The notes under the pieces: model-generated | Told to the model about the DNA's origin: nothing | Database searches by the model: none | The model's input: the letters and a program-made list of their open reading frames with translations, nothing else | Shown here: positions 189-61,525 of the stretch, in pieces | Numbering within the stretch: position 1 is the stretch's first letter | Layout: each line of letters begins with the position of its first letter | Translations under genes and position numbers: made by a program | Assembly: GCF_964340395.1 (NCBI RefSeq) | Contig: NC_135553.1 | Span: 804,001-868,000 of the forward strand | DNA from: Glandiceps talaboti | Taxonomy: Eukaryota; Hemichordata; Enteropneusta; Spengelidae | Direction of reading: 5' to 3' | Length of the DNA: 64,000 bases

Positions 189-9669
<9,481 letters not shown>

Positions 9670-20399: not shown

Positions 20400-20759
20400 T
20401 GTTGCATTTTTACCCTTTACTGTGTGATTTAACGATCTTCCAACAGTGAAAGAGAAGTACAACTAGGTGAAATCTCAATTTGAACACCGGGCCAGTTATT
20501 TGACAATAACGGAGAAAACGAATACGGACCAAAGGTTCACCACTACCGGTTTTGACATCTCAGTTCGGCTTGACTGTCTTTGCTACGGTTTGTACACCTT
20601 GAACTGGACAACATATTGGGTCACGGAGAGTCATCGGTGCGTGAAGATATACCTCAATGTTCTTCTACCTTCACCGCTAACAATGTCAAGTTGACTGGCG
20701 ATTTCCTATTGTGTAATTCATTGAACATGAATGGTGGTGTAGAAAGCTAGTTTGCCAGG
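20400..20759 (+). promoter_or_regulatory. likely promoter/5' UTR of the ARL4-type gene
   Basis: The base composition shifts from AT-rich spacer to a more balanced, CpG-containing stretch (for example gccgagcacaatcggtaaac, cggagaaaacg and accggttttgac) just before the GTPase start codon. This is typical of a core promoter and leader. No clear TATA box was seen, and the transcription start cannot be placed exactly. Confidence 0.4.
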
Positions 20760-21368
20760 ATGGGCAGCGGTTCATCTCGAGGTGGCCGAAGTCTGTTGGA
20801 ACATATACCAGCCTTTCAGACCCTTCAGATTGCGATGATCGGACTAGATTATTCAGGGAAAACTACAGCGTTGTATCGCTTGAAATTTAACGAATTTATT
20901 AACAGTGTTCCCACGATTGGCTTCAATGTGGAAAAAGTGAAGCCGACCTCAGGGAAGGCAAAGGGTACGAGTTTTACATTTTGGGACGTCGGTGGCCAGG
21001 ACAAACTACGGCCGTTGTGGAAATCATACACGAGAGGGGCAGACGGTATTGTTTTCGTTGTCGACAGCTGTGATATTGACAAACTTGAGGAGGCAAAAAG
21101 TGAATTAACTAAACTGTTAAAAATGCCAGAAAATCAAGGAACACCTCTTATCGTCATTGCAAATAAACAAGATTTACCAGCAGCTTTAAATGTGTCTGAA
21201 ATTGAAGCTAGATTGAGTGTTCCAGACATTGTTGGCCCTATGCAGTTGTGGCACGTCCAACCAGCTTGTGCTATCACTGGAGAAGGTCTATTTGAAGGAC
21301 TTGATGTTTTGTACGACATGATTATCAAGAGAAAGAAAACTCTAAAACAACAAAAGAAAAAGAGGTAA
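20760..21368 (+). CDS. ARL4-like: ADP-ribosylation factor-like small GTPase, ARL4 type
   Basis: An intact single-exon gene of 202 residues, close to the usual 200 or so of ARL4 proteins. ARL4 GTPases sit at the plasma membrane, recruit ARNO/cytohesin Arf exchange factors, and can also enter the nucleus. Seen here: Gly2 in an MGxxxS N-myristoylation context; P-loop GLDYSGKT at 28-35; switch I PTIGF at 51-55; switch II WDVGGQ at 75-80; KLRPLWKSYTR; NKQD at 135-138; CAITGEG; and a basic C-terminus with KRKKTLKQQKKKR, the hallmark of ARL4 that binds phosphoinositides or acts as a nuclear localisation signal. The absence of introns matches vertebrate ARL4A/C/D coding regions. Vertebrate ARL4s have Lys where this has Ile53, so the switch I here is ARF1-like. 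A polyadenylation signal follows at 21582-21587. Confidence 0.93.
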   Translation: MGSGSSRGGRSLLEHIPAFQTLQIAMIGLDYSGKTTALYRLKFNEFINSVPTIGFNVEKVKPTSGKAKGTSFTFWDVGGQDKLRPLWKSYTRGADGIVFVVDSCDIDKLEEAKSELTKLLKMPENQGTPLIVIANKQDLPAALNVSEIEARLSVPDIVGPMQLWHVQPACAITGEGLFEGLDVLYDMIIKRKKTLKQQKKKR

Positions 21369-22650: not shown

Positions 22651-23232
22651 TGTAAGCTGGGACCTGATGATGTCCCCTTACACTGGAATGATGTATGCTG
22701 ACTGTAAGCCGGGACCCAATTCTGATGATGTCCCCTTACACTGGAATGATGTATGCTGACTGTAAGCTGGGACCCAATTCTGATGATGTCCCCTTACACT
22801 GGAATGATGTATACAGACTGTAAGCTGGGACCCAATTCTGATGATGTCCCCTTACACTGGAATGATGTATACAGACTGTAAGCTGGGACCCAATTCTGAT
22901 GATGTCCCCTTACACTGGTATGATGTATACTGACTGTAAGCTGGGACCCAATTCTGATGATGTCCCCTTACACTGGAATGATGTATACAGACTGTAAGCT
23001 GGGACCCAATTCTGATGATGTCCCCTTACACTGGTATGATGTATACTGACTGTAAGCTGGGACCCAATTCTGATGATGTCCCCTTACACTGGAATGATGT
23101 ATACAGACTGTATTAAAGCTGGGACCCAATTCTGATGATGTCCCCTTACACTGGAATGATGTATACAGACTGTAAGCTGGGACCCAATTCTGATGATGTC
23201 CCCTTACACTGGAATGATGTATACTGACTATC
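22651..23232. repeat. 58-bp minisatellite
   Basis: There are about ten units of the form ctgggacccaattctgatga, tgtccccttacactggaatg, atgtatacagactgtaag. Units are highly alike and differ mainly at aatg/tatg and atacag/atactg; one carries a 4-base insertion (actgtattaaag). The minus-strand frame over it is an artefact. Confidence 0.95.
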
Positions 23233-32909: not shown

Positions 32910-35900
32910 TTATTCTGCATTCTCTTCACCCTGTCAAAGAAGTAAAAAATTTAGAATTTGAACAAACGTGCGACTAAACTAGACACTTCTTGTAATCACC
33001 ATATGTAAATTAGATTGAGAGTTGTTGTCTTTGACGCTTCTGAAAGAGCGCCCTCAACAGCAAATATTTCATTATCTGTTGAAATGCACCTATATCAGAT
33101 CTGTATGCCTACAATTTTTCTCTTATTATTATTATTATTATGTAATAATTCTCCCATCAATAAGACAGTTTTATTTTTTTCAATGGATGTTCAATTTGAA
33201 TGAGATACCAGGATATTCAGAACTACTAAAATATATCACAGAAAAGTTTGTAACTATAGAATAAATTGAATTGTTATGTTAATTTGATAGGAAATCATCT
33301 CTCAATATTAACTAGACCAGGCAGGATACATTGCTGTAGTTGATACAAATTTCAATATGATTGGTGACATCAACTCCAGTAGGACTGACATTGTCATCCC
33401 ATAATTCATGTCTGCATTTGTACACTCACCTCCTTCTCCCCATCTCCTTTCTCTTCAGCAATTGTATCCTGCAAATAATACCATAAGGCTTGTTAAGAAC
33501 TGTAGCACAAATAATGTCATGTCTACAACTATTTGTTACACTAACAGAGTTATTGTATGACATCCATTAATTCACCAGTATGTTATACATATCAAGATAT
33601 CTGACCACTATCTAATATGTTATGAATGACTGGGTATTGTGAAACTTTGAGTCAATAGTTAGTGTTATACATGATTTGTACCAACCTGAATTGAGAAATG
33701 TAACCTTGATAGTACACTTCTGTCAGTACAACTGTTTATGTAAATTGTGTATATGAAAGGGACTTACAATCAACAACTTTTAATATTGATTTATCTCATG
33801 AATAGTAATGACCATACATGTTAATGACCACCCAGCACTCTGTTAGGACTGGGGAGAACCCTGATTTTATATCATATATCAACTCTCACCCCTTGATCTG
33901 CCTGTGCCTCTTCAGCTTCTTTTCGCTTTGCTTCTTTAGCTTCTCTGCTCTTCTTTTCAGCTTCAATGGCATTATAGAAGTCTTTCTCTGCCTGAGCAAC
34001 CAGGTCTTCCTCTTCAAACTGACCACCTTCTTCACCTTCATCTTGTTTTTCTTGTTGACTTGTACTACGTTGTTTTAACCTCATCTCACGATGACGTGAC
34101 TCTAGAATCTTCTCTCTTCTTTGTTCACGTTCAAACATTGCAGTGACTGAACTCTTCTCATTTCTTTGCATTGTACAAAGACCACTGGACAATTCTAATA
34201 ATGTTGTGGTACCACTCTGAGATCCTGTTGCAATAAATCTACCTTGGTCTTGAATACGTAGACTATGAAGGGCTTCATCAGTAACCTGTATAAAACAACA
34301 TCACTATGTGTTAATGTCTAGCTGACATCAAAGGTAACAATCTGTCTACAATACTGGTTATTAGTACGTCAACTGAGTTATGTACTGCATACATGTATAT
34401 GAATATTGTCTAGCTCTCCTTCATATGACTAAAGCCTTCACAATGTGCAGCTTTCTACATAGCATTTTCCAGAGAGAGAAAGAGCTCAGAGACCTGGAAC
34501 ACACTGTGTACAAGTAGTGCCACTTCTTGAATGATCTAGACACTATTGTACATACATACATGGTAAGAATTCTAACCCTGTCATTACAACTAACATACAC
34601 GACTGACCTGTAAACTAAGAGTTGGGTCATTCTGTTTGAATAGGAAATCCCACACATCCAATGTACCATCCATCTTTGTGGTAAAGAACACTGCTGGTCT
34701 GATAGGACTCCAACATCCATCTGTCATGTATGACATGTGGTACCTATAGTAATAATAATACATAAACATTCAGTCTAATACTCTAGTATTTACGATGTGT
34801 TTTGTCTTGATAGAAAACTATGTATAGATTAGTTTAGGAATAAGAGATTGGGAAACAACTGTCACATATGGCAAACAGTGTCACAAAAAAATGTCTCAAG
34901 AGTGATTACACTTGTTTACCCAAAGATTCACATTGTAAGTCATAATTCTAGTCACTATGGAAATGGAACACTGTAATAACTACAATCTTGCATGTGTAGT
35001 AAGTAGATGACGAAGGGGTCTAAATGTTCACCTTGGAAAAGAAGGTTGTGAACAAAAGTGATATAGCTGTCACAAGAAATTGGGGTGGGGGTGACAGACA
35101 TCAAACTGAAAACTTTCCACTGTTATTACCGGTACACCGATAAAGAAGGTAGTCTACTTACTTTGTCCACATTATAGAGGACTCACGAATGTCTTCTGAC
35201 CAAATCTGCATCAAACAACATAACATAGCCAAATTAATCATTACAAAGATAGAATGCTCTTAAAAATGTTTATGTAGCAAAGATAGACACTAGCTAAAAT
35301 CTGTGCCTCTGAAATCATTGCAATGGACATTATTTGTAACAAAAGAAGAGAGTATATCTGATATACATGTATAAGTGTATGGATGAATGTTAATGCAATG
35401 TGTAATGTTACATTGGTATCTAAACTTTCCATCACGTTAAACACACCAAGCACAAAGTTCCAGTAACCATAGCAAGGTATACTTTTATCACAATCGCTCA
35501 AAAATGGAAAATGTGACTACCGGGTTGGGTCCAATCTCACAGCACCTAAAATCATTTAAACTGTTGCCATATTATTGTATCTCACTCTGTCACCATATTA
35601 AGTATCAACAGTTACCCCTTCTTGGCTATACGTCAGCAAGGAATTAGTCTGGAATAAGAATGAGTACTATGTATATTGTATGTATTTCTTACCCTTGCTG
35701 TCCAATCACCAACTGTCAGGAAGTTCTTAGGGAAGAATGGATTCCTTTGCAGTGAATATACAGGTCCTAGATGTGCTGGGTAGATGGATACAATCTTCTC
35801 CATTGGTGTCTTAGCTTTACGATTACAAGAAATAACTGTACCTTGCTCTGTTCCAACCATGAACTTGGTAGGCTGGAATAAGACAAACATGTAAAAAATA

Positions 35901-41303: not shown

Positions 41304-42064
41304 ATGAGCGGGAAGGCATACAGTTTTGAAGGGGTAGCGTATTGGTCAGGAGGAGCCTCAGGAGGTGGGGCTTCGGCGGGGGCTTCGGCACCACCGCCAG
41401 AGTATGATGAAGTTGTTTCGTCTCGACCTCCGTCACGACCATCTTTTCATTTGATGTATGAGGATTTTTTCCCTGAATGCCTAAAAACTGGAGGAATGTT
41501 ATCGGCTCCGGTCTTCGAAAGATTTGAGTAAGTGTCAATGTTTATGTACAAGTTGACATATAAAATTGCTATAATTTCACATATTGTAAACATCTTGTGA
41601 TCAGTAGGAAGTGCTATGTTTTGGAAACCTTTAGATAAATTATCTATTGTGTAGTATTGATCTGTAACTTTAATTATAAGTATAAGACATTCTTTGTAAG
41701 ATATGTGCTTATACGTAAGAAAGTCAACTTAACAGTGTATGCTATCAGGCATGATTGTGTATGAATTAATTAATTAACTTAAAGTTTATTACTTAACAAC
41801 ATGCTGTGGAAAGCATGGTATAGTAAACACAATACAATACAATACAATACAATACAATACAATACAATACAATACAAGACAAAAATACAAATATGAATAA
41901 CCATGAACAGGAAAAACTCCTTGTTCATATATCAAATTCTCTAATTCATTATTATCATTGTATTCAATACTGTAGTTTAGGGTTTTATCTATATTTATAA
42001 TTATCTATTATGTTTTTGTTATTTCTGTATGTTGTTTTTGACTCTAGATAATGTACTTTTTTTT

Positions 42065-42107
<43 letters not shown>

Positions 42108-42108
42108 G

Positions 42109-42158
<50 letters not shown>

Positions 42159-45100
42159 TTTATTGCATAACAACATGCCATAGCAAGCATAATAAAGCAT
42201 ACAGAAATAACACACAGAAATAAAGTGAATACAAATACAGTCATTTTAGCCAACAATTTACATTATTTCATGTCAAATAAAATATACTCTATACTAATTA
42301 CTACAGTATGATATATTTTTCATTTGTACTTTTTTAATGCAATATTAATTTGTCTGGTGATTGGTCCAGAGCAACTCATTGGGTAAGCGTTCTATGTACT
42401 AGTATTTGGAAATAAACTGTGCACTATATAGTTTGGATACAGTTATCATGTACAGGTATAATAGAGCCAGACTATATAGTACATGTGATGACCTTATTTC
42501 ATTTCACACCATAGCCCATAGTCGTCATCTGCTAAAGGTTCTGCTTCTGCTTCTGCTTCTGTTTCTGTTTCTGTTTCTGTTTCTGCTTCTGCTTCTGCTT
42601 GATACTGTGCAAAACACCATGCGGTTATCACACACAGGTCAGTGTGGAATTGATGTCCTGTCATCTGCCAATGGTCTGAAGTCTTATTTATCATTGTTAA
42701 TTGTCATTTCTACATGTACACATACATTGTACATATATTTGTATCTTTATTTTTAACTGACTGACCAACCCATAATTGTTAAGGTGTTATGATGAAGGAA
42801 ATGGAAGATATGGGTACCCTAACCAGTGTGAGTGAATATGAATATGAATATGATGGTAGCTTCACACTCGTGAATATTTAAGTGTTCTGATTACAGGGTC
42901 AAAAGGTCATTGACTTGTGAAAACAATTGTCCAGTTTCAGATGGAGGGCTTTAAAGTGAATAAAATTGTGAATATTTCGAATTCATATTTAATTGCATTT
43001 ATGTATGAGTACCTCTAAAGGTATATGTCGCTGTGATACATGCCTCATAATTTGACAGTTTGTTTATTACCATATATAAGATTTTTTTTTTACAGTTCGC
43101 ACAATAAAGTAAATACAGGTTGATAATTTGGGAATGGGAGTCAGAAAAATAGTATAATGCTAATTATTAATTCCATAAGAAACAAAGTTATAAAATTACT
43201 CTGTAAGACTTACTTGTTCCAGATGAGATTTTGTGATTTTATTTACGTTCAATGCAAGTTGACATTTTGAACTGATTATTATTCTCTTATTTTCCAGTGT
43301 TGTGATGCAGAGAGCAAACCAGTGGCTGCAAAGAAACCCACAAATTGAGATAAAGACTTGTGAAAGTTTAGAGAAAGGCACTTTAAAAGTAAAGTATCCT
43401 GTCAATCCCAATTCATCAGTAAGATATCAATCAGGCGAGGGTTACCAATATATGGTAAGGGGGTTAAGGTAAGTGCCAACTGTTAATTAGGAGCATGGTA
43501 AGGGTCATGGTAAGTTGTTGTGGTAATTAAGGGTCAGTATGGTAAGAGATGTAAGTCATTAGAAGTAAATGATAAGGGAGATAAGATAAGTGTTAGTTGT
43601 TAGATGCATGGTAAGGGATGTCAGTAATTAGAAACTACATGGTAAGGGGTGATGGTAATTATAAGTATCAGTTGTTAGATGCATGGTAAGGGGCTTCAGT
43701 AATTAGAAACTACATGGTAAGGGGTGATCGTAATTATAAGTGTCAGTTGTTAGATGCATGGTAAGGGGCTTCAGTAATTAGAAACTACATGGTAAGGGGT
43801 TACAGTAATTATAAGTGTCAGTTGTTTGATGCATGGTAAGGGGCTTCAGTAATTAGAACTACATGGTAAGGGGTGATGGTAATTATAAGTGTCAGTTGTT
43901 CGATGCATGGTAAGGGGCTTCAGTAATTAGAAACTACATGGTAAGGGGTGATGGTAATTATAAGTGTCAGTTGTTAGATGCATGGTAAGGGGCTTCAGTA
44001 ATTAGAAAGTACATGGTAAGGGGTGATGGTAATTATAAGTGTCAGTTGTTTGATGCATGGTAAGGGGCTTCAGTAATTTGAAACTACATGGTAAGGGATT
44101 ACAGTAATTATAAGTATCAGTTTGTTAGATGCATGGTAAGGGGCTTCAGTAATTAGAAACTACATGGTAAGGGGTGATGGTAATTATAAGTATCAGTTGT
44201 TAGATGCATGGTAAGGGGCTTCAGTAATTAGAAACTACATGGTAAGGGGTGATGGTAATTATAAGTATCAGTTGTTAGATGCATGGTAAGGGGCTTCAGT
44301 AATTAGAAACTACATGGTAAGGGGTGATGGTAATTATAAGTGTCAGTTGTTAGATGCATGGTAAGGGGCTTCAGTAATTAGAAACTACATGGTAAGGGGT
44401 GATGGTACTTATAAGTGTCAGTTGTTTGATGCATGGTAAGGGGCTTCAGTAATTAGAAACTACATGGTAAGGGGTGATGGTAATTATAAGTGTCAGTTGT
44501 TAGATGCATGGTAAGGGATGTCAATAATTGGAAACTACATGGTAAGGGGTGATGGTAATTATAAGTATCAGTTGTTTGATGCATGGTAAGGGTTGTCAAT
44601 CATAAGAACTGCTGTAAGTGTCACTTAGCATGGTAAGGGGTGTCTATCATTAGAAAATACATGGTAAGTGTTAGTTGTTTAAGGAGCATGGCAAGGCATG
44701 TATAATTATCTCAAAGTGTCTGTTATATTCAAGGACTCAACTGTTCACACAATTTGTTACATCCAACATTTGCATGAACCAAGGCCATGCATATAAAGCC
44801 TGACAATTGAACAATAGGTAAATTGCTGTATTTTTTCAACAGACTTTGGTATGGTCCAAAAAATACAAGTTCTGGAAGTCCAGATCAGTTGCGTTATTTA
44901 AACTGTGTACCAGGATGTATTAAATCTGGAGGATTCTTCTCTGGTTACCCTCAGTTTGAGTCACTTCAAACCTCTTTATCTAATCTCAATACATATCTAC
45001 AACGGCAACCTATCCCAGGTAGGCAGTAAACCTATCCCAGGTAGGCAGTAAACCTATCCCAGGTAGGCAGTAAACCTATCCCAGGTAGGCAGTAACCCAT

Positions 45101-48100
45101 CCCAGGTAGGCAGTAAACCTAACACAGGTAGGCACTAAACCTATCCCAGGTAGGCAGTAAACCTATCCCAGGTAAGCACTAAACCTATCCCAGGTAGGCA
45201 GTAAACCTATCCCAGGTAGGCACTAAACCTATCCCAGGTAGGCACTAAACCTATCCCAGGTAGGCAGTAAACCTATCCCAGGTAGGCAGTAAACCTAACA
45301 CAGGTAGGCAGTAAACCTATCCCAGGTAGGCAGTAAACCTAACCCAGGTAGTCAGTAAACCTATCCCAGGTAGGCAGTAACCTATCCCAGGTAGGCAGTA
45401 ACCTATCCCAGGTAGGCAGTAACCCATCCCAGGTAGGAAGTAAACCTATCCCAGGTAGGCAGTAAACCTATCCCAGGTAGGCACTAAACCTATCCCAGGT
45501 AGGCAGTAAACCTATCCCAGGTAGGCAGTAAACCTAACCCAGATAGGCAGTAACCCATCCCAGGTAGGCAGTAAACCTAACCCAGATAGGCAGTAACCCA
45601 TCCCAGGTAGGCAGTAAACCTATCCCAGGTAGGCACTAAACATCCCAAGTAGGCAGTAAATGTATCCCAGGTAGGCAGTAACCTATCCCAGGTAGGCACT
45701 AAACGTATCCCAGGTAGGCAGTAACCTATCTCAGGTAGGCACTAAACCTATCCCAGGTAGGCACTAAACCTATCCCAGGTAGGCAGTAAACCTATCCCAG
45801 GTAGGCAGTAAACCTATCCCAGGTAGGCAGTAAACCTATCCCAGGTAGGCAGTAAACCTATCCCAGGTAGGCAGTAACCTATCCCAGGTAGGCAGTAAAC
45901 CTATCCCAGGTAGGCAGTAAGCCTCCAGGTAGGCACTAAACCTATCCCAGGTAGGCACTAAACCTATCCCAGGTAGGCAGTAAACCTATCCTAGGTAGGC
46001 AGTAACCTATCCCAGGTAGGCACTAAACCTATCCCAGGTAGGCAGTAAATCTATCCCAGGTAGGCAGTAAACCTATCCCAGGTAGGCACTAAACCTATCC
46101 CAGGTAGGCACTAAACCTATCCCAGGTAGGCAGTAAACGTATCCCAGGTAGGCAGTAACCTATCCCAGGTAGGCATTAAACCTATCCCAGGTAGGCAGTA
46201 AATCTATCCCAGGTAGGCAGTAAACCTATCCCAGGTAGGCACTAAACCTATCCCAAGTATGCACTAAACCTATCCCAGGTAGGCTGTAAACGTATCCCAG
46301 GTAGGCAGTAACCTATCCCAGGTATGCACTAAACCTATCCCAGGTAGGCACTAAACCTATCCCAGGTAGGCACTAAACGTATCCCAGGTAGGCAGTAAAC
46401 GTATCCCAGGTAGGCAGTAACCTATCCCAGGTATGCACTAAACCTATCCCAGGTAGGCACTAAACCTATCCCAGGTAGGCACTAAATGTATCCCAGGTAG
46501 GCAGTAACCTATCCCAGGTAGGCACTAAACGTATCCCAGGTAGTCAGTCTGTCTACCCTTGTTTTACAGAATGAATTTGAACATTTGAAATACAGAATAT
46601 AAAGTATTCAGTTTCATGGGCTCTGTGTTTTGTCTGTCTACCCTTGTTTTATAGGACGAATTGTCACTGTTGAAACCCAAGATATGAAGTGTACAGGTGG
46701 TTGGTCATCTGCAGGCATAGATCCAGATCAGAGCTGGTGGTTTGAGTCTGGAAACCAGGACAAATTGTATCTATTTATCATCCGTGTTTTCTATATAGTG
46801 GGACCAGCTCATTATGAGGAAATAGGCAAGTTCATAAACAAACTTAACATGTACTACATGTATTATGATGAAAATCCATAATAAGTCATGATATTAGTAT
46901 AGTATAGTAATGTCTGTCTCTATGCCTTTGAAATGATTTTTTTCTTTACTTGAGTGTCCACTGGTGCAATCTTAAGTGAACAAAAATCTTACGGCATTCA
47001 GTTTACACAAGGCATTCAGTTTACACAAGGCATTCGGTTTACACAAGGCATTCAGTTTATACAAGGCATTCAGTTTACCCAAGGCATACAGTTTACACAA
47101 GGAGTTCGGTTTACACAAGGCATTCGGTTTACACAAAGCATTCGGTTTACACAAGTCATTCAGTTTACCCAAAGCAGTCGGTTTACACAAGGCATTCGGT
47201 TTATAAAAGGCATTCAGTTTACCAAAGGCATTCAGTTTACACGAGGCAATTAGTTTACACAAGGCATTCAGTTTACACAAGGCCTTCAGTTTACATCAGA
47301 CCTTCAGTTTACACAAGCATTCAGTTTACACAAGGCATTCAGTTTACCCATGGCATTTAGTTTACACAAGGTATTGGGTTTACACAAGGCATTCAGTTTA
47401 CACAAGGCAATCGGTTTACCCAAGGCATTCGGTTTACACGAGGCCTTCAGTTTATACAAGGCAATTAGTTTACACAAGGCATTCAATTTACACAAGGCAT
47501 CAAGTTTACACAAGACCTCCAGTTTACACAAGGCATTCAGAATACACAAGGCATTCAGTTTATGTCTTGTTTATGCATCAACTAGAACTTGTATATAAAT
47601 AATGGTGATAATGTTTTATTTTTTACTATTAGGTGTTGCTGACTTTGTACCTCAATTGGAAGGTGGCAATACTTCCAGTTCTCCAATGTTTTTCACTCTC
47701 CCAGCATCAGACGCCTATCACAGTGTTATGTCAAAAGCCCATAACTGGGTCAAGGCACAGCAGGGTATTAGGATAACCAATGTTAAGGCCCTTGACATCA
47801 AGTTCCATACAAGTGGATTCTCAAGTAAGAGCCATTCCTTGCAATATTGATGTCAGATTATTGGAAAAACAAAATATTGTACATTCTGGCCACTAGGAGT
47901 GCTGTTCTGTTGTTGTTTTTTGACCAAATGGTGGCCATATTTGTAGTTTCAATATTTACTGCATTAGGCACAAAAACTGTAATACACAAACACTCCATTT
48001 GAGTGTTTACCCCATATTATCAGATGCAAGCTATCTTTGGAGATCTTGACCTCCAGGGGCAATTCTCAAGCCAATTCGTGCCTATCACAGACACATTGTG

Positions 48101-49813
48101 GTGTTTACTTATTGGCAATTTCTTGTAAATCACGTTTACAAGTGACAGTGCAGAAAGGAAACTATACACAAGCATTACTTTTGGTGCTCATATCACTTTA
48201 ACCGAATGGCAACCATATTTGTAGTTAAATCATTATTTACTGCATAACTCAAAAACTGTAATACATAGAGACTCCATTCAAGTGTCTACCCCCATACTAT
48301 CAGATGCGAGCTATCTTTGGAGACCTTGACCTTCAGGGCTAATCATTAAAATCAAGCCATTATTCCTGCCTATCACAGACACATTGTAGTGTTTACATTT
48401 TGCCAGTTTCTTTTAAAGCATATTTACAAGTAATATTGAAGAAAAGAAGTATACACAAACATTATTTTTGGTGCTTATGTGATTTTTAGTGAACAGTGAA
48501 TGGCAGCCATATTTGTAGTAAACAATCCATGTATTTACTGCATAACTAAACAACTTCAGACATGGACTATATACATAGACCATCAAAATTAGGCTACTAC
48601 TTACATATTGCAAACACTTTGTAGGGGGGGGGGGGACCATCATTCATAACACACCTTCACCCTCTATCATTAGCTTAATTATTACAAAGTAAATTGAGAA
48701 CTGTTTTCTTCTTCCTTGCAAAGGTTCTGTATCCTTTGATACACAAAGGACCAGCTATGTAGAGAATGGGAAGGGCAAAACTGCGTTCATTCGCACTGTA
48801 CGTATTGCTTATGTGAAGCCACGTACTCCGCTACCACCAACTCCACCACTGCTGTTAACATACAGGACATTTGTTCCCATTCTATTAAAAAAAGGAGGAA
48901 TGATGTCCATGCCTCACTATGAATCCCAACAAGAGACTCTGCACAGAGCTATGGCTTGGTTGAATGCTACAGGTAAATATTGCAATGACGTTCTTACACA
49001 AGCTGTCATTGGTCAGAATCAGATCACATGACATTCTTTAAATTAAAAAAAAATTTTTTCCAGTGTTGCACACTCAAGATGACAAAATCACTACAGTGAG
49101 ACATACAAGCTCATTTCTTGCAGAAATTTGTATAAATATAAATTGCAGATTAGCTATGGGGACGCTCAAGCTCCTACAAATAATGCCATATCTGCATTCA
49201 GTGGTTATCCACAGTTTAGAAATACACCATCTATCGATGACAAATGATGATGAATGAAGATTAGCTATGTGAATGATTGGACAAATGATTGGATGGTGTA
49301 ATAAAATTACTAACACATGCGCTCAGGAAATATCACAATTTAATGCCTGCCCTTGAGTTGGCACTCTGTACCAAATTATGATGATGCCAAAAGTTTTGGT
49401 AAAGAATGCCAACCCTTGTGCAGGCACTAAAATTGTGATATTACTCTCGCTGGCATGTGTTATTATTTAAATATAAACTGACATTTTAGTACCCTGGCAC
49501 ACTGCAGTTATACATTATACAGTAAACCATAGTGATTTGCATGGATTTACTGTGGCAGTGTATAATTGTTTTGTTTTGTTTTTCATGTGTAGGAGCAGCT
49601 GTATTGGGTGCAGAGTCAGTGGAAATTAAGCTACATAATCGTAAATATGCAGATGATGAAAACACCATCTATTGTGAATATGGTAAAGAACTTATTGTAT
49701 ATGTCAGTGCATTGCGTATTTATCTTCACGGTATTTATCAAGAGCCTCCAGCAGAACTGTTACCAGCTGTTCCAAGTAGGAAGAAATCTGATTCAGATTG
49801 TCTTATCATGTGA
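41304..49813 (+). CDS. four-repeat CaaX/PPxY protein, tandem copy 1 (unrecognised family)
   Basis: I do not recognise this family. Coding exons: 41304-41527, 43298-43468, 44843-45018, 46655-46825, 47633-47824, 48724-48972, 49593-49813; phases agree and give 467 residues. Seen in order: a Gly/Ala/Pro-rich N-terminus with PPEY (a PPxY WW-ligand motif, about residues 31-34); then four diverged repeats of about 90 residues at roughly 50-137, 150-241, 252-344 and 361-441. The repeats share a 'VP..(I/L)K.GG..S.P.(F/Y)ES' start, a central 'W(L/V)', an 'I.(V)....(L/V)(E/D)(I/M)K' strand and a closing '(L/V)R(I/V).Y'. The end is DSDCLIM, a CaaX box whose Met favours farnesylation. There is no signal peptide or membrane segment, so I infer a prenyl-anchored cytosolic protein that could bind WW-domain partners. 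The intron after 46825 has a GC donor (GCAAGT). Confidence 0.85.
41757..41880 (-). mobile_element. LINE 3'-tail fragment with ACAAT microsatellite
   Basis: Reverse orientation in intron 1 of copy 1. The complement (ctataccatgctttccacag, then catgttgttaagtaataaa) resembles the LINE tail at 56500-56556 ('tttaccatgcttactatggc', 'atgttgtcatgcaac'). A pentanucleotide (CAATA)n run abuts it. It is absent at the matching place in copy 2 (about 54300-54320). Confidence 0.55.
42064..42240 (-). mobile_element. LINE 3'-tail fragment with AATC microsatellite
   Basis: Reverse orientation in intron 1 of copy 1. The complement reads 'atgctttattatgcttgcta', 'tggcatgttgttatgcaata', then (GATT)n, as in the LINE ending at 56556. 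The (AATC)n run is the expanded 3'-terminal repeat of the element. The copy 2 intron lacks it. Confidence 0.65.
42360..42700. repeat. CTTCTG/TTTCTG hexanucleotide array in conserved intron block, copy 1
   Basis: The hexanucleotide run at about 42537-42602 sits inside an intron block that is nearly identical in copy 2 (54385-54790, run at about 54629-54704). The array therefore predates the gene duplication. Its antisense Glu/Thr frame is an artefact. Confidence 0.8.
43469..44660. repeat. 75-bp minisatellite in intron 2, copy 1
   Basis: There are about 15 units containing cagttgttagatgcatggta, aggggcttcagtaattagaa, actacatggtaaggggtgat and ggtaattataagtgt. The array starts right at the exon 2 donor. 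The exon end and donor (atatggtaagggggttaagg, then taagtgcc) resemble the unit, which carries two or more ggtaag donor-like words. Copy 2 has only a few degenerate units (57046-57345). Confidence 0.9.
45007..46545. repeat. 22-bp minisatellite made of the exon 3 splice donor, copy 1
   Basis: About 70 units of aacctatcccaggtaggcag + ta, with cacta/cagta and cgt variants. The first unit is the true exon 3 end: cctatcccag (coding, to 45018) followed by gtaggcagt (donor). So nearly every unit repeats the exon end plus the 5' splice site CAG/GTAGG. The in-frame taa in each unit means use of a downstream donor would add a stop codon. Confidence 0.95.
46549..46654 (+). promoter_or_regulatory. duplicated 3' splice site before exon 4, copy 1
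   Basis: The pyrimidine tract and acceptor 'tgtctgtctacccttgtttt' + acag (AG at 46568-46569) recurs about 85 bases later as the real exon 4 acceptor (same tract + atag, AG at 46653-46654). The bases after the first acceptor (aatgaatttg) resemble the exon 4 start (gacgaattgt). Copy 2 has the same pair (AG at 58265-58266 and 58350-58351). Confidence 0.8.
46985..47565. repeat. 18-bp minisatellite in intron 4, copy 1
   Basis: About 32 units of ggcattcagtttacacaa with point variants. Because 18 is a multiple of three, open frames appear on both strands; they are not genes. Copy 2 has a shorter related array at 59575-60030. Confidence 0.95.
47925..48560. repeat. large tandem duplication (about 280 bp) in intron 5, copy 1
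   Basis: The phrase 'ggccatatttgtag..tatttactgcat' begins near 47931, 48207 and 48502, with downstream text (aaaaactgtaatacac, atcagatgc, cacagacacattgt) repeated in the first two units. Copy 2 keeps a much shorter version (60381-60590), so units were gained or lost after duplication. Confidence 0.7.
49311..49462. mobile_element. MITE with about 60-bp terminal inverted repeats
   Basis: The left end taacacatgcgctcaggaaa, tatcacaatttaatgcctgc is matched in reverse complement by the right end (tgccaacccttgtgcaggca .. attgtgatatta .. tggcatgtgtta). It may have TA target duplications, as in Tc1/mariner-type MITEs. It is in intron 6 of copy 1, and the matching intron of copy 2 lacks it. Confidence 0.7.
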
Positions 49814-53873: not shown

Positions 53874-56800
53874 ATGAGCGGGAAGGCTATAGGTTTTGAA
53901 GGGGTAGCGGATGGGTCAGGAGGTGGGGCTTCGGCACCACCACCGCCAGGGTATGATCAAGTTGTTTCGTCTCGGCCTCCGTCACAACCATCTTTTCGTT
54001 TGATGTATCAAGATATTTTCCCCGAATGCCTAAAAACTGGAGGATTATGGACGCCCCCGGTCTACGAAAGATTTGAGTAAGTAACAAGTCTGTGGACCTT
54101 GACATTTGCTATTTATAGTTTAATACATATTGTAAACAACAATTGCTTTGCTCTGGTGATCAGTACGAAGTGCTATGTTTTGGAAACTTTTCGATACATT
54201 ATCTATTGTGTAGTAGAAGTTTCATTATAAAGTATAAAACATTCTTTGTAAGATACGTACGAAAGTCAGCCTAAACAGTGTATGCCATCAGGTATGATTG
54301 CCGTGTGGTTATAACGGGACAGGAAAAACTCCTTGTTCATATATATATCATATATTTTACATTTGTACTTTTTTAATGCAATATTAATTTGTCTGGTGAT
54401 TGGTCCAGAGCAACTCATTGGGTAAGTGTTCTATGTACTAGTATTTGTAAACAAACTGTGCACTATATAGTTTGGATAATAATAATAATAATAATAAATT
54501 CTTACAGTTTATACAGTTATTATGTACAGGATACAGTTATTATGCAGGTATGATAGAGCCAGACTATAGTACATGTGGTGACCTTATTTCATTTCACACC
54601 ATAGCCCATAGTCGTCATCTGCTAAAGGTTCTGCTTCTGCTTCTGCTTCTGCTTCTGCTTCTGTTTCTATTTCTGTTTCTGTTTCTGTTTCTGCTTCTGC
54701 TTGATACTGTGCAAAACACCATGCGGTTATCACACACAGGTCAGTGTGGAATTGATGTCCTGTCATCTGCCAATGGTCTGAAGTCTTATTTGTCATTGTT
54801 AATTGTCATTTCTACATGTACACATACATTGTACATACATACATACATACATACATACATACATACATACATTCATTTTGTATCTTTATTTAACTGACCG
54901 ACCAACCCATAATTGTTAAAGTGTTATAATGACAAACATAGAATATATGGCCATGGGTACCCTAACCAATATGAATATTCACTGTAATTAAGCTGCTGTT
55001 AAAGTATTTGTATAGATAAATTGTTGATGGAAATGGTTTATTGAGAGCAGCCTATATGTCTTCTATGTGTTATTCAAAATGGGGTATTTGTATAAGAAAT
55101 TTACTTGATAAATATAGTGAGAACAGTATGGTCAAATCTTGGTAAGTTTAATTCTACAATCAAGAAGGTTCATGATAATTTATGTCAAGAATTTTGTAAA
55201 TCTTGGTACAGGGAATTACATAATGACATTAGAAGAAATAGGACTAATAAGAACAAAATCAGAACATATAGATTGTTTAATTAAACTGTTTTTGGTTTTT
55301 AGAAATGACGTCTTCTGCAAATTAAAAATCCTGTTAGGGATTCTTCAGCCGGGGAGGGGGCTGGATTTGTAAGGGGGTCACCCTGTTTTTGAAATTGACA
55401 GTAGGGGGGTCATGATGTTTCTGATACTTGATGGTGCTGTCTTGTAAAGCATGGATTAAGTTCTGAATAGACTAAATATTGGCTTTAAGAGTAAAAATCC
55501 CCCAGGGCTTTTAGTGGGAGACCCCTCAGACCCCCACATGAGGTGAACATATCGCAATCTCAAGCTTTTCCCCTCTTACTGTCAAGATGCTATCAAACTA
55601 TATTTCAAAAGTATTTCAACCCTATGTAGTTGCTCTTTACATGTTGGTGCTGTCTTGTAAAGCTTGGAAATTATTGTCTGAAAGGGTCTGAATAGTCTCA
55701 AAATTGACCTTTCAGAGTTAAAATCCTCCTGGGCTTCTAGGGGGAGACCCCCTAGGACCACCATAAGAGATGTACATATTCCCTTCTCTAGCTTTCTGCC
55801 TACCTTTCACTGTCAAGATGCTATTAAACTCCTTTTGGAATATATTTACCCTGTGTAGTCAATAATTATAATTATGATAGAGCTAACCCGGAATCTTATA
55901 AAGTAGATGCAAGATAGTCAAGCAGTCCACACTGAGTCACGATCAAAAAATACCTGTCATGTGAATATTATATATGGGGGAGGGGGTCATCATGTTTTAG
56001 AATTAAGTGATGGGGGTCAGCCTGTTTGTGGTTTTACAGATGGGGGGGGGGGGGTTCAGTGATATTTTATCGGCCCGATTTAAGAATCCACCTCCCCCCC
56101 TCCCCCAGGCTGGAGAAAATGACTGGGCCCTTAGTAGAAAACTAGTGACTAAATTTAAATTTTGGACTATAATATTCAAATTGAGTTGGGGAGACGGTGT
56201 ACTCCTAAGATTCCTGTAGATGAAAGATTCAGTAAATTTTGTCAAAGTATGGTAGAAGATGAATTTCATAATTTCATTCTTTGTTTTCATTATACAAATG
56301 AGAGAAAAGCACTTTTTTCTTCATTGTCATTAAATAATTCAAATTTTCATTCCTTAAAAAACAAAAGTAAATTTTTGCACATTTTGACCTCCGATGATAA
56401 ACTTCCTCTTGGAAAATTTCTTGTTGATGTAAACAGTCCTCCAGGTGTTGTCAGAATGACTGTATTGTATTCATTTTATTTCTGTATGTTATTTTTGTAT
56501 GCTTTACCATGCTTACTATGGCATGTTGTCATGCAACAAAGATTGATTGATTGAATATTTAAGTATTCTGAGTACAGGGTCAAAAGGTCATTGACTTGTG
56601 AAAACAATGGTCCAGTTTCAGGTGGAGGGCTTTAAAGTGAATAAAATTGTGAACATTTCAAATTCATATTTCACTGTAATTGTATTTATGTATGAGTACC
56701 TTTAAAGGTATATGTCGCTGTGATACATACCTTATAATTGTATGGAAAATAGATGAAACAAAGTTATAAAATTACTCTGTAAGACTTACTTGTTCCAGAT

Positions 56801-58828
56801 GAGATTTTGTGATTTTATTTACGTTCAATGCAAGTTGACATTTTGAACTGATTATATAATATTCTCTTGTTTTCCAGTGTTGTGATGCAGAGAGCAAACC
56901 AGTGGCTGCAAAGTAACCCACAAATTGAGATAAAGACTTGTGAAAGCTTAGAGAAGAGAACTTATTCAAAGTATCCTGTCAATCCTAATGAATCAGTAAG
57001 ATCTCAATCAGGCCAGGGTTACCAATATATGGTAAGGGGATTAAGGTAAGTGCCAACTGTTAATTAGGAGCATGGTAAGGGTTGTCAAAAGATACAACTA
57101 CATGGTAAGAGGGTCAAGGCAAGTGACAGTTTTTAGGAGCATGGTAAGGGATGTCAATTATTAAAACTACCAGTACATGGTAAGGGTGATAAGTGTCAGT
57201 TGTTAAGAGCATGGTAAGGCATGTCAATCATAAGAACTATATTGTGAGTTGTTAAAGGTAATTGTGTCACTTATTAGGAGCATGGTAAGGGTGTCTATCA
57301 TTAGAAAATACATGGTAAGTGTTAGTTGTTTAAGGAGCATGGTAAGGCATGTATAATTATCTCAAAGTGTCTGTTATATTCAAGGACTCAACTGTTCACA
57401 CAATTTGTTACATCCAACATTTGCATGAACCAAGGCCATGCATATAAAGCCTGACAATTGAACAATAGGTAAATTGCTGTATTTTTTCAACAGACTTTGG
57501 TTTGGTCCAAAAAGCACAAGTTCTGGAAGTCCAGATCAGTTGGGTTATTTAAACTGTGTACCAGGATGTATTAAATCTGGAGGATTCTTCTCTGGTTACC
57601 CTCAGTTTGAGTCACTACAAACCTCTTTATCTAGCCTCAATACATATCTACAACAGCAACCTATCCCAGGTAGGCAGTAAACCTATCCCAGGTAGGCACT
57701 AAACCTATCCCAGGTAGGCAGTAACCTATCCCAGGTAGGCAGTAAATCTATCCCAGGTAGGCACTAAACCTATCCCAAGTAGGCAGTAACCTATCCCAGG
57801 TAGGCAGTAAACCTATCCCAGGTAGGCACTAAACCTATCCCAGGTAGGCACTAAACCTATCCCAGGTAGGCAGTAAACCTATCCCAGGTAGGCACTAAAC
57901 CTATCCCAGGTAGGCAGTAAACCTATCCCAGGTATGCACTAAACCTATCCCAGGTAGGCACTAAACCTATCCCAGGTAGGCGCTAAACCTATCCCAGGTA
58001 TGCACTAAACCTATCCCAGGTAGGCACTAAACCTATCCCAGGTAGGCACTAAACCTATGCCAGGTAGGAAGTAAACCTATCCAAGGTAGGCAGTAAACCT
58101 ATCCCAGGTAGGCACTAAACCTACTCCAGGTAGGCACTAAATCTATCCAAGGTAGGCAGTAAACCTATCCCAGATAGGCAGTAAATCTATCCCTCAGTAC
58201 TGGTAGGCAGTAAACCAATCCCTGGTTGGGGAAACTGTGTTTTGTCTGTCTACCCTTGTTTTACAGGATGAATTGTAAGATTTGAAATACAGAATATAAA
58301 GTATTCAGGTTCATGGGCTCTGCGTTTTGTCTGTCTACCCTTGTTTTATAGGACGAATTGTCACTGTTGAAACCCAAGATATGAAGTGTACAGGTGGTTG
58401 GTCATCTGCAGGCGTAGATCCAGATCAGAGCTTGTGGTTTGAGTCTGGAAACCAGGAAAAATTGTATCTATTTATCATCCGTGTTTTCTATATAGTGGGA
58501 CCAGCTCATTATGAAGAAATAGGTAAGTTCATAAACAAACTTAACATGTACTACATGTATTATGATGAAAATCCATAATAAGTCATGATATTAGCCTAGT
58601 ATAGTAATGTCTGTCTCTATGCCTTTGAAATGATTTTTTTCTTTACTTAAGTGTGTTGCAAGAAATGTTGTGTAGCTATTGACATTTCCTGACAGGAATG
58701 ATTCTTTTTATATCATTGTAATATATTAACTCTCTGTATTAAAGAAGTTCAATATGTCAGTGTGATTAAACAATGAGTAGTTTTTTTCTTCCGTAAGGAA
58801 GAGATATATTTATGGGTGGAAGTCTGTG

Positions 58829-58859
<31 letters not shown>

Positions 58860-61525
58860 GTCATCGTTTTCTCCATAAAGGCTTGCTCAATTCAAACGAA
58901 ATTTTGAAGACGTATTTTGTAGGGTAATGGCAAGACTTGATTAGGTTTTGGTAAAAATCCCTTGAATATTAATGAGCAATTTACATAATTAATGAATTTC
59001 GGTAATTAGGCTATATCTCAAGAATGCACGCTTCAAATTCATTATAACTTGGTACACACATTTGCGATACCAAAGCGCACCTGTCCTAAAAATATTCCTA
59101 AGTAGCTTTTAGTTTTAATAAATTATTGGCATATTTTTGTAGGCCACTAAAAAGGAAAAAATAGTTTCTCATCAGAAATGTTGTCTAAAGTAGTACGACA
59201 ATGCGCTTATATTTTTTTTACATTCTCAACAAATGTCATAGAACATGTTATGGTTGGCCAGGAGATCACTAACAGCAATGAGCAAATAGCAATCAATGAG
59301 AAAAAATAACTTATTACATATGTTCTGTTGTATTCCAACAATTGTCTGTAGGAACGACAATCTCAAAACTTTGCCCTTACGGAAGACATTCAGTTTACAT
59401 CTGGTTTACATGATGAATTATATCTGTCTGTATCTTAGTATAGTATGCAAGCTTTACATTTCATAGAATTTGGTATAATTGATTTGCCTATTAAGGGGTA
59501 TATCATGATGGATAGCTGTAGCTCAGAATTTTGAAATACAACAATAACTGTATGTAGGAACAAAAATCTAACGGCTTACACAAGGCCTTCAGTTTACACT
59601 AGGCCTTCAGTTTATACAAGGCATTCAGCTTACACAAGGCCTTCAGTTTACACAAGGCATTCAATTTACGCAAGGCATTCAGTTTATACAAGGCATTCAG
59701 TTTACCCAAGGCATTCAGTTTACACAAGGCATTCAGTTTACCCAAGGCATTCAGTTTACCCAAGGCATTCAGTTTACCCAAGGCATTCAGTTTACCCAAG
59801 GCATTCAGTTTACACAAGGCACTCAGTTTAATAATAATAATGTTGGGTTCTTATATAACGCTTTCCCACTTTGTGCTCAAAGTGCTTTACAATTATTACA
59901 CAAGGCATTCAGCATACACAAAGCATTCAGTTTAATACACAAGACATTTAGCTTGTACAAGGCATTCAGTTACACAAGGTATTCAGCTTGCACAAGGCAT
60001 TCACCTTGTGCAAGGGATTCAAGTTACATGCAGTTTAGCCATCAACTAGAACTTGTATATAAATAATGGTGATAATGTTTTATTTTTTACTATTAGGTGT
60101 TGCTGACTTTGTACCTCAATTGCAAGGTGGTAGTTCTTCCATGTTTTTCACTCTCCCAGGATCAGAGGCCTATCACAGTGTTATGTCAAAAGCCCATCAC
60201 TGGGTCAAGGCACAGCAGGGTATTAGGGTAACCAATGTTAAGGCCCTTGACATCAAGTTCCATACAAATGGATTCTCAAGTAAGAGCCATTCCTTGCAAT
60301 ATTGCAATGTCAGATTATTGAAAAAACAAAAGATTTTATCTGATCACTACGAGTGCTGTTCTGTTGTTGTTTTTTGACCAAATGGTGGCCATATTTGTAG
60401 TTTCAATATTTACTGTATGATTCAAAAACTCTAATACAAATCATGTTTACAAGTAATATTGAAGAAAAGAAGTATTAAATTAGTATACTCAAACATTATT
60501 TTTGGTGCTCATGTAATTTTTACTGAATGGCAGTCGTATTTGCAGTAAACAAACAATATATTTAAAATTGCATAACTGAACTGGGGTAGCATCATTCATA
60601 AAACATCTTAACCCGCTATCATTAGCTTCTCAATTTGTTAAGAAAGAAATTGAGAACTGTTTTCTTCTTCCTTGCAAAGGTACTGTATCCTTTGATACAC
60701 AAAGGACCAGCTATGTAGAGCATGGGAAGGGCACAACTGCATTCATTCGTACTGTACGTATTGCTTATGTGAAGCCACGTACTCCACTACCACCAACTCC
60801 ACCACTGCTGTTAACATACAGGACATTTGTTCCCATTCTATTAAGAAAAGGAGGAATGATGTCCATACCTCACTATGAATCCCAACAAGAGACTCTGCAC
60901 AGAGCTATGGCTTGGTTGAATGCTACAGGTAAATATTGCAATACTACTCAGACATTCCCTTGTGATATGATGTGTAATAATTTGAATTAAGCTTTGGCTT
61001 TGTAAATTGATCATGACAAAAACAGAATGTTCATAATTTCAACAGTTTAATGTATATAAATGAGAACAATTTTTTCTACACTTCAAAAGACAATTAGATA
61101 TGACGTGCAGTAATTTTTAATTAATTTAACAAATTACATGATTGTATTACATAAATCATTACTGGATATATTTTATCCATAATTTTAAACTGACATTTTA
61201 CTTCCTATGCACACTGCAGTTATACATTATACTCTAGGCCATAGTAATTTACATGGATTTACTGTGGCAGTGTATAATTGTTTTGTTTTGTTTTTCATGT
61301 GTAGGAGCAGCTGTATTGGGTGCAGAATCAGTGGAAATTAAGCTACATAATCGTAAATATGCAGATGATGAAAACACCATCTATTGTGAATATGGTAAAG
61401 AACTTGTTGTATATGTCAGTGCATTGCGTATTTATCTTCACGGTATTTATCAAGAGCCTCCAGCAGAACTGTTACCAGCTGTTCCAGTTATGAAGAAACA
61501 TGATTCAGATTGTCTTATCATGTGA
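53874..61525 (+). CDS. four-repeat CaaX/PPxY protein, tandem copy 2 (unrecognised family)
   Basis: Paralogue of 41304-49813 with the same seven-exon plan: 53874-54076, 56878-57045, 57494-57669, 58352-58522, 60097-60279, 60680-60928, 61305-61525 (456 residues predicted). All exons are open with canonical GT-AG introns. Differences from copy 1 are mostly conservative or in the low-complexity N-terminus (shorter, PPGY in place of PPEY) and in the linker of repeat 3 (three residues fewer). The CaaX box CLIM, the GG-turns, Trp residues and closing 'LRIY'-type strands are kept, so both copies appear to be under selection. The exons are much more alike than the introns, which have gained different insertions. 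It could have a different expression pattern, since the X-box-like half site is missing from its promoter. Function unknown. Confidence 0.85.
54829..54875. repeat. CATA microsatellite in intron 1, copy 2
   Basis: A (CATA)n run follows the sequence 'tgtacacatacattgtacat', where copy 1 has no expansion. Confidence 0.9.
54985..56556 (+). mobile_element. LINE fragment in intron 1, copy 2, split by another element
   Basis: Recognisable LINE ORF C-terminal pieces lie on both sides: 'FCKSWYRELHNDIRRNRTNK' with KIRTYRLFN near 55180-55290, and 'KIPVDERFSKFCQSMVEDEF', HNFILCFHYTNERKALF near 56200-56330, the Cys/His-rich block typical of LINE ends. The 3' tail is 'tggcatgttgtcatgcaaca' + agattgattgattga at about 56519-56556. 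It is missing from copy 1, so it inserted after the duplication. The left border is approximate. Confidence 0.75.
55345..56112. mobile_element. purine-rich non-autonomous element nested in the LINE
   Basis: About 770 bp interrupts the LINE. The left end (cagccggggagggggctgga) and the complement of the right end (ccagcctgggggaggggggg) form G-rich inverted repeats. Inside, a unit of about 213 bp (beginning tggtgctgtcttgtaaagc at 55432 and 55645) is tandemly repeated. No coding capacity. It resembles the purine-rich remnants near 17470 and 18150 only loosely. Confidence 0.45.
57046..57345. repeat. short degenerate donor-derived repeats, intron 2, copy 2
   Basis: Four or five irregular units containing 'gagcatggtaaggg' follow the exon 2 donor. 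They match the junction-proximal part of the large array of copy 1 (43469-44660), so expansion happened mainly in copy 1. Confidence 0.7.
57658..58210. repeat. 22-bp minisatellite made of the exon 3 splice donor, copy 2
   Basis: About 25 units of aacctatcccaggtaggcag + ta, starting with the true exon 3 end and donor (cctatcccag to 57669, then gtaggcagt). Same design as copy 1, so the array existed before the duplication and has since changed in length. Confidence 0.95.
58241..58351 (+). promoter_or_regulatory. duplicated 3' splice site before exon 4, copy 2
   Basis: The tract 'tgtctgtctacccttgtttt' with acag (AG at 58265-58266) is repeated about 85 bases later as the true acceptor (atag, AG at 58350-58351). 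After the first acceptor come gatgaatt and a donor-like gtaaga, which could in principle define an 8-base micro-exon. Confidence 0.75.
58788..59385. mobile_element. non-autonomous DNA transposon with CTTCCGTAAGG ends
   Basis: A 598-bp element in intron 4 of copy 2. The ends CTTCCGTAAGG (58788-58798) and CCTTACGGAAG (59375-59385) are exact 11-bp inverted repeats. Inside are a (TCTG)n run and AT-rich sequence without a transposase. The matching intron of copy 1 lacks it. Superfamily not assigned. Confidence 0.7.
59575..60030. repeat. 18-bp minisatellite in intron 4, copy 2
   Basis: Units of ggcattcagtttacacaa, interrupted near 59830-59903 by an inserted retroelement tail. Related to 46985-47565. 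Confidence 0.92.
59829..59905 (-). mobile_element. LINE/SINE 3' tail (inverted) inside the minisatellite
   Basis: The complement reads 'ttgtaaagcactttgagcac', 'aaagtgggaaagcgttatat', then aagaacccaac and (ATT)n. This 'gtaaagcgctttgag .. agcgctatat .. (ATT)n' design is a widespread 3' tail of animal LINEs and their dependent SINEs. It is inserted into the 18-bp array and absent from copy 1. Confidence 0.55.

Follow-up and report, generated by a model that had tools for sequence, protein, structure and literature searches.

Splice-donor minisatellites in two introns of a tandem gene pair and at apparent exon ends elsewhere in a probable hemichordate genome

The repeats known as mirages were reportedly first described by Canestro et al. 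in 2002. They are minisatellites that span an exon-intron boundary, recorded in the lancelet genes Adh3, TnC and PGBD5 and in the globin genes BflGb6 and BflGb9; in the portions of these reports cited here they occur on both the donor and the acceptor side of introns, and splicing is reported to be undisturbed (PMC3087553, PMC3902484). Splice donors within a minisatellite are also on record for the human gene IFI6 (6-16): the title of Turri et al. 1995 names a minisatellite with multiple splice donor sites, and in the cited part of a later report, two of the repeat units further downstream are said to act as alternative donors, which results in three mRNAs (PMC4526556). In a third case, the potato RdRp gene, a new intron is described as born from one tandem duplication across an exon-intron boundary (PMC4974935, as excerpted). 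Here we analyze a window of 64,000 bp (contig 6, positions 804001-868000, of a 590-Mb genome) that contains two tandem paralogues, copies A and B, in each of which intron 3 carries a 22-bp minisatellite whose unit contains the splice donor of exon 3.

The intron 3 arrays are mirages by structure. Like the lancelet repeats, they are built from a tandem unit that spans an exon-intron boundary, in both copies, and the AG/GT splice signals are kept in 67 of the 71 units of copy A and 22 of the 26 units of copy B. They differ in scale from BflGb6, for which 6 and 3 units are given: there are 71 units here, and Tandem Repeats Finder (TRF) counts 120 copies at another locus of the same genome (L055). 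Unlike the lancelet cases, a single gene here holds two donor arrays together with an acceptor duplication, and the host is ambulacrarian by mitochondrial evidence, although the restriction to lancelets is a matter of record and not of definition. A literature search on mirages and boundary-spanning minisatellites showed no report outside lancelets under that name among the papers listed from the collection searched. As in IFI6 the minisatellite units carry splice donors, but where IFI6 is said to use alternative donors, the later donors here would lead into a stop within the first retained unit. The potato RdRp gene shares the tandem duplication across an exon-intron boundary; here, by contrast, the long array sits in an intron that already existed, with no sign of a new one. 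We consider it likely, at a probability of roughly 80%, that the arrays grew by tandem duplication across the exon-intron boundary, that splicing uses the first unit, and that the remaining units are tolerated decoys.

Donor arrays in introns 3 and 2 of the gene pair

The intron 3 array begins at the same place in both copies, 12 bases upstream of the exon 3 donor (45007 in A and 57658 in B). Exon 3 ends at 45018 and 57669, and with both of these ends the genes read open throughout. The final 12 bases of the exon, aacctatcccag, lie inside the first unit, and each unit consists of the last 12 exon bases followed by the first 10 intron bases (coordinates in Table 1). TRF reports a period of 22 for both arrays, with 71.0 copies and 91% matches in copy A and 24.5 copies in copy B; parsing unit by unit gives 71 and 26, the last unit of each array being degenerate. 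The array length thus differs between the paralogues. When the 30 nucleotides on the donor side of exon 3 were compared with intron 3, they scored above every control exon window (238 in A, 231 in B). Genome-wide, a 21-base stretch of the unit had 32 exact matches, all within the two arrays, and none was found in the viral contigs searched with a 17-base unit. As a possible sign of selection on the donor, its 9-mer carries fewer mismatches per column than the remaining positions of the units (1.2 versus 5.5 in A, 0.7 versus 1.6 in B), but the excess at those other positions comes mainly from a few columns. The initial annotation of this stretch had taken the unit to be the end of exon 3 joined to its donor, had estimated about 70 and 25 units and had placed the end of exon 3 at 45018; TRF, unit parsing and the exon ends bear it out on each count, and a donor-bearing array is present in both paralogues.

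Most units are also equivalent to the real donor in their predicted match to U1. Duplex energies were computed against the 5' end of U1. The real exon 3 donor has a duplex energy of -10.7 kcal/mol; array A has 62 plus-strand sites with an equal or better match and array B has 18, the real donor counted in each. At the same energy or better, intron 2 of each copy has two sites, the exon 2 donor counted, the remaining 60,097 plus-strand bases have four, and the minus strand of both intron 3 arrays has none. The dozens of near-identical donors in series that the annotation had described are therefore there, both in the units that keep AGGT and in their U1 energies. Such a density, with 62 sites in the 1.5 kb of array A against four in the 60,097 bases outside, would also suit a nascent intron that binds many U1 small nuclear ribonucleoproteins (snRNPs), recruiting splicing factors or suppressing premature intronic polyadenylation. 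We regard such a sink for U1, an idea raised in the initial annotation, as very improbable: in ensemble folding the array donors are predicted to be mostly paired, with a median unpaired probability of 0.03 in A and 0.01 in B.

Intron 2 donor arrays, a duplication on the acceptor side of intron 3 the occurrence of the same anatomy in other genes and the existence of a published name for it go beyond the initial annotation. At a U1 energy threshold of -6.5 kcal/mol, each unit of the intron 2 arrays contains on average 1.9 donor-like sites. Compared with intron 2, the 30 bases that close exon 2 scored above every control exon window (238 in A, 232 in B). Of the 12 introns, four passed this donor-side test, namely introns 2 and 3 in each copy. 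A boundary stretch of exon 2 that includes 45 intron bases aligned to the intron 2 unit with scores of 34 and 36, the maxima from 500 shuffles being 30 and 29. We scanned 24 tandem arrays of the window for donors, chosen from 57 TRF rows with overlapping rows and most simple repeats omitted; plus-strand sites at a U1 energy of -8 or better were found in four, these being the intron 2 and intron 3 arrays, with 0.8-1.9 sites per unit.

The acceptor side of intron 3 is duplicated as well. A copy of the acceptor lies 85 bases upstream of the real boundary and aligns to it with a score of 55 in A and 82 in B, against shuffle maxima of 24 and 30; the duplication rests on these alignments and on one TRF row. 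The 12 acceptors of the gene pair served to build a small scoring matrix, by which the upstream copies stand at the 99.8th and 99.97th percentile of window AGs, the matrix including the near-identical sister of each. With the donor array and the duplicated acceptor, intron 3 carries decoys at both of its ends.

The same anatomy in other genes

We searched the genome on both strands for three CAGGTAAG motifs in series, which gave 1062 matches, many of them within the same arrays. The matches listed cover about 100 places and belong to eight arrays, which lie on contig 1, on contig 2 and within 8 Mb of the start of contig 4. All eight were inspected, and six start at an apparent exon end (Table 1). 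A second donor motif, CAGGTGAG, is represented by nine arrays among the matches listed; two of the six inspected (L066 and L067) start at an exon end and four do not visibly do so, which brings the donor-bearing arrays that start at an apparent exon end to 8 of the 14 inspected outside the window. The exon at L066 has no Pfam match. Exon calls at L055, L058 and L066 are also backed by acceptors; L067 is open throughout its stretch. For the same motifs written backward, five arrays occur among the matches listed and none was seen at an exon end, three of the stretches lying wholly inside the array. Donor motifs outnumber backward motifs (1062 versus 434 matches for CAGGTAAG, 350 versus 274 for CAGGTGAG), but a few long arrays dominate these counts and we do not use them as proof.

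At L054 to L057 the exon bearing the array could be paired with the exon after it, and in all four pairs an AG directly precedes that second exon. In a DEAD-box gene (L054), a VPS13 gene (L056) and a homogentisate dioxygenase gene (L057), the donor of the first unit and the next exon join in matching phase. Use of the first-unit donor predicts gapless homology across this joint, and alignment of L057 with homogentisate dioxygenase (PDB 1ey2) and of L056 with VPS13A (9yg4) shows no gap at the exon joint. These homologies favor the first unit as the donor that would be used for productive mRNA. At L060 the array has a 39-bp (13-codon) unit and is open in frame for its whole length (4880-5392 of the locus, plus strand); later donors there would add 13-residue repeats to the protein.

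Donor choice, origin and turnover

To follow the consequences of donor choice in the window genes, hypothetical mRNAs were translated for donors of the form GTAGG or GTATG, 66 in A and 24 in B. Of these, only the first donor keeps the reading frame and gives the full protein. All later donors tested truncate it, the 65 in A at 193 aa and the 23 in B at 185 aa, and in every case the stop is a TAA within the first unit retained. This agrees with the earlier proposal that downstream donor choice brings a premature stop. The accompanying statement that every unit holds an in-frame taa stands for the first retained unit, whereas the TAAs of the other units fall in other frames, since with a 22-bp period the frame of the TAA changes from unit to unit.

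Taken with the anatomy, these results suggest the following course of events. The intron 3 array would have arisen as a minisatellite by tandem duplication over the exon 3/intron 3 boundary, as a result of which every unit copies 12 exon and 10 intron bases. Splicing would join the first-unit donor to the acceptor of exon 4 (exon start at 46655 in A, 58352 in B), and the other units would remain in the intron as decoys without a function of their own. Two things would make the array tolerable: the exon-proximal donor wins, and any slip beyond it runs into a stop after a few codons, with a product that is probably degraded. A first-come, exon-proximal rule of this kind would require no RNA structure. 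The number of units, now 71 and 26, would grow and shrink by slippage or unequal exchange.

A functional role for the later donors, which takes up the noisy donor choice proposed in the initial annotation, would have several units used in vivo. The poison isoforms so made would tune expression via nonsense-mediated decay, array length being the dial. The 61 decoys of copy A whose U1 energy equals or betters that of the real donor would fit this, as would the identical truncation from every later donor tested, and in the cited part of PMC4526556 the IFI6 units do serve as alternative donors. Lancelet mirages, on the other hand, are reported in the excerpts cited to splice normally (PMC3087553, PMC3902484), in other genes the homology that runs across the first-donor joint is what a productive product would show, with room left for side products, and the proposed dial is set nearly threefold apart in two paralogues that are both open. 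On balance we consider such tuning unlikely.

Equally improbable, and in our view a minor rival, is that the array masks itself. In this model the exon-derived CCUAUC of a unit would pair with the donor GGUAGG, so that the decoys fold together, while the first donor is made and read earlier. This complementarity underlies the predicted pairing of the array donors in ensemble folding. All six within-unit pairs are possible in 48 of 71 units in A and 21 of 26 in B, and when the consensus unit was shuffled around a fixed donor, few shuffles hid the donor equally well (14 of 300 in A, 13 of 300 in B). The predicted folding of array A, however, is not more stable than that of dinucleotide shuffles (z of -0.21 and -0.46), even if that of the B stretch is (z of -2.20); folded as DNA the value is +0.67, and a stretch of the intron 2 array is less stable than its shuffles (z of +2.20). 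The real donor is also predicted to be mostly paired, with an unpaired probability of 0.12 in A and 0.02 in B, ranking 10 of 68 and 8 of 24, respectively.

The juxtaposed AG/GT of most units is a likeness to recursive splice (ratchet) sites, and each could in principle act as acceptor and then as donor, the array being removed stepwise with a donor restored each time. A short C/T run precedes each AG/GT, and there are 22 instances of the branch-site-like CACTAAAC in A and 11 in B. The array differs from ratchet sites in its weak acceptor context and its 22-nt spacing, and steps of 22 nt are too short for an intron. A recursive splice site is expected to have a strong polypyrimidine tract before the AG/GT, and the array AGs have a median acceptor score of -0.4, at about the 83rd percentile of window AGs; the gene's own acceptors score higher, from 0.7 to 11.0 with their own exon left out, and the duplicated upstream acceptors score 13.5 and 16.2, with the near-identical sister in the matrix. 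Recursive splicing is accordingly the least probable of the schemes considered here.

Copies A and B were compared over nine unique stretches, seven of which are 92-97% identical; the two lower values belong to exon 1 with its upstream region (79%) and to a short stretch after the stop (89%). The unique flanks beside the intron 3 arrays are 96.9% and 96.6% identical. Because the arrays start at the same base in both copies and lie between flanks of this identity, an origin before the gene duplication, as the initial annotation had proposed, is probably the simplest reading. Gene conversion after the duplication may have contributed to the presence of arrays in both copies; as the sole reason it was rejected, since an identity of 92-97% in seven of the nine stretches calls for no special tract. 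The order of units is not common to A and B, and copy B shows a three-unit periodicity (0.39 at lag 3 versus 0.14 expected, reached in 0 of 500 shuffles), a sign of internal turnover.

Several points weigh against the view that the arrays are boundary duplications spliced from their first unit. The identity of the donor used is read from reading frame and homology, and several donors may be in use here as in IFI6, going by the cited part of PMC4526556. Six of the 14 donor arrays inspected elsewhere do not lie at a recognizable exon end, and the exon calls at L055, L058, L066 and L067, which have no Pfam match above cut-off, rest on open frames. The backward-motif control is weak, the 5' edge being in view for two of its five arrays. 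On the acceptor side, the first 30 bases of exon 4 are unremarkable when compared with intron 3, 65 of 238 (A) and 31 of 231 (B) control windows scoring as high, which implies that the upstream acceptor copy has decayed in its exon part. Finally, a 58-bp minisatellite at 22664-23229 has minus-strand donor-like sites, about one in each unit, with no exon end recognized; it was not counted.

Choice among identical neighboring donors is usually studied in built constructs of a few sites. The arrays described here supply such series ready-made, in open genes and with anything from a few to about 120 near-identical donors; in the window genes, donor choice could be read out as 22-base steps and a stop. 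If use of the first donor proves strict, it would argue for a first-come rule and not for site strength. We tentatively suggest, as a generalization we hold at slightly less than even confidence, that splice donors are recurrent birthplaces of minisatellites in this genome, that conserved genes of many unrelated kinds hold their own donor in as many as about 120 copies, and that together they amount to a natural experiment in which the exon-proximal donor is chosen over scores of identical ones, possibly helped by self-folding of the array. Within the literature searched, mirages are thereby extended beyond lancelets to a further group of deuterostomes, and within a single genome to several genes, with a bearing on how minisatellites start and on how new exon ends and introns arise. 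This is a known but rare kind of repeat in a new animal group, on a scale that would make donor choice testable in nature.

The gene pair, its host and neighboring features

The two paralogues lie in tandem on the plus strand, each intact with seven exons and no stop over 467 (A) and 456 (B) aa. Their proteins are 90% identical, with a nonsynonymous divergence (dN) of 0.054 and a synonymous divergence (dS) of 0.080. A genome-wide search gave 14 exon matches, seven per gene, making A and B the only copies found, and a search of prokaryote genomes with the protein of the pair found no relative. The copy A protein has no match in Pfam up to an E-value of 0.1 or in PDB up to an E-value of 1; the proteins of the pair contain four weakly similar repeats of about 90 residues, with 23-31% identity to the first. 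We do not claim introns 3 and 6 as homologous positions within this internally repeated protein, because the alignment sets them one residue apart and BLASTP finds nothing.

Table 1. Features of the gene pair in the window, and donor arrays inspected at other loci, with apparent exon ends
Feature	Position	Strand	Description
Gene copy A	41304..49813	+	7 exons, stop included in last; 467 aa
Copy A exons	41304-41527, 43298-43468, 44843-45018, 46655-46825, 47633-47824, 48724-48972, 49593-49813 (stop)	+	
Gene copy B	53874..61525	+	7 exons, stop included in last; 456 aa
Copy B exons	53874-54076, 56878-57045, 57494-57669, 58352-58522, 60097-60279, 60680-60928, 61305-61525 (stop)	+	
Copy A exon 3	44843..45018	+	the 22-base unit opens with its final 12 bases
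Copy A donor array, intron 3	45007..46548	+	22-bp unit, 71 units, 67 with AG/GT; consensus AACCTATCCCAGGTAGGCAGTA
Copy B donor array, intron 3	57658..58193 (TRF limits)	+	degenerate units continue to about 58237; AGGT intact in 22 of the 26 parsed units
Copy A intron 2 array	43586..44592	+	75-bp unit, about two ATGGTAAGGG-type donor-like sites per unit; resembles exon 2 end plus donor
Copy B intron 2 array	57063..57319	+	unit of about 70 bp; donor-like sites of the same kind as in copy A intron 2
Copy A duplicated intron 3 acceptor side	46547..46654	+	upstream acceptor copy would give an exon from 46570; real exon 4 from 46655
Copy B 85-bp tandem duplication, intron 3 acceptor and exon 4 start	58235..58395	+	upstream copy would give an exon from 58267; real exon 4 from 58352
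L054, CAGGTAAG array at exon end			81 TRF copies; joined to next exon, Pfam DEAD 9.7e-16
L055, CAGGTAAG array at exon end			120 TRF copies; no Pfam match
L056, CAGGTAAG array at exon end			19.5 TRF copies; joined to next exon, VPS13_N 1.5e-23
L057, CAGGTAAG array at exon end			5.2 TRF copies; joined to next exon, HgmA_N 1.8e-32
L058, CAGGTAAG array at exon end			2.6 TRF copies; CENP-F_leu_zip only, below its cut-off
L060, CAGGTAAG array at exon end			13.2 TRF copies, in frame; exon alone, Sec7-like_HDS 8.3e-06 (BIG/Sec7-like)
L053, L059, CAGGTAAG arrays			not at exon end

Intron 4 differs between the paralogues in its donor, which is GC in A (46826-46831, TAG/GCAAGT) and GT in B (58523-58528). 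It also contains an 18-bp minisatellite (GGCATTCAGTTTACACAA; 46993-47562 and 59576-60021) that is not boundary-derived by the tests used. We rejected this array as a third mirage: its donor-side exon score is equaled or exceeded by 14 of the 238 control windows in A and by 24 of the 231 in B, and its units have no plus-strand donor at -6.5 or better.

Evidence on the host comes from the mitochondrial genome, which is assembled in tandem on contig 40 (L064, L065) with COX1 recurring every 15,435 bases. Genes were identified by Pfam except for ND5, a long open frame taken as such, and their order is COX1, COX2, ATP6, CYTB, COX3, ND3, ND4L, ND4, ND5, ND6 (on the other strand), ND1, ND2. The codons AAA, AGA and AGG are absent from the seven mitochondrial genes checked. 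Sixteen ATA codons of COX1 and CYTB, counted by eye in alignments with the best PDB chain, stand opposite nine isoleucines, four valines, one methionine and two other residues. In the cited part of PMC2697986, ATA coding for isoleucine is common to echinoderms and hemichordates, and AAA is absent in Balanoglossus carnosus. Lancelet orders are either vertebrate-like or show the Asymmetron rearrangements, and neither, as excerpted, has CYTB between ATP6 and COX3 (PMC2034537); the two hemichordates of PMC2697986, in the part cited, have nd5 adjoining cob, and the order found here fits neither of them. From code and gene order we conclude that the host is ambulacrarian and not a lancelet, and probably a hemichordate.

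Rfam gave no match in the window at gathering scores. Elsewhere in the window, an Arf-family GTPase is encoded in a single open frame at 20751-21368 (Pfam Arf, 2e-54), and an open frame resembling axonemal dynein intermediate chain 2 lies on the minus strand at 33872-34300 (PDB match, 2.7e-35).

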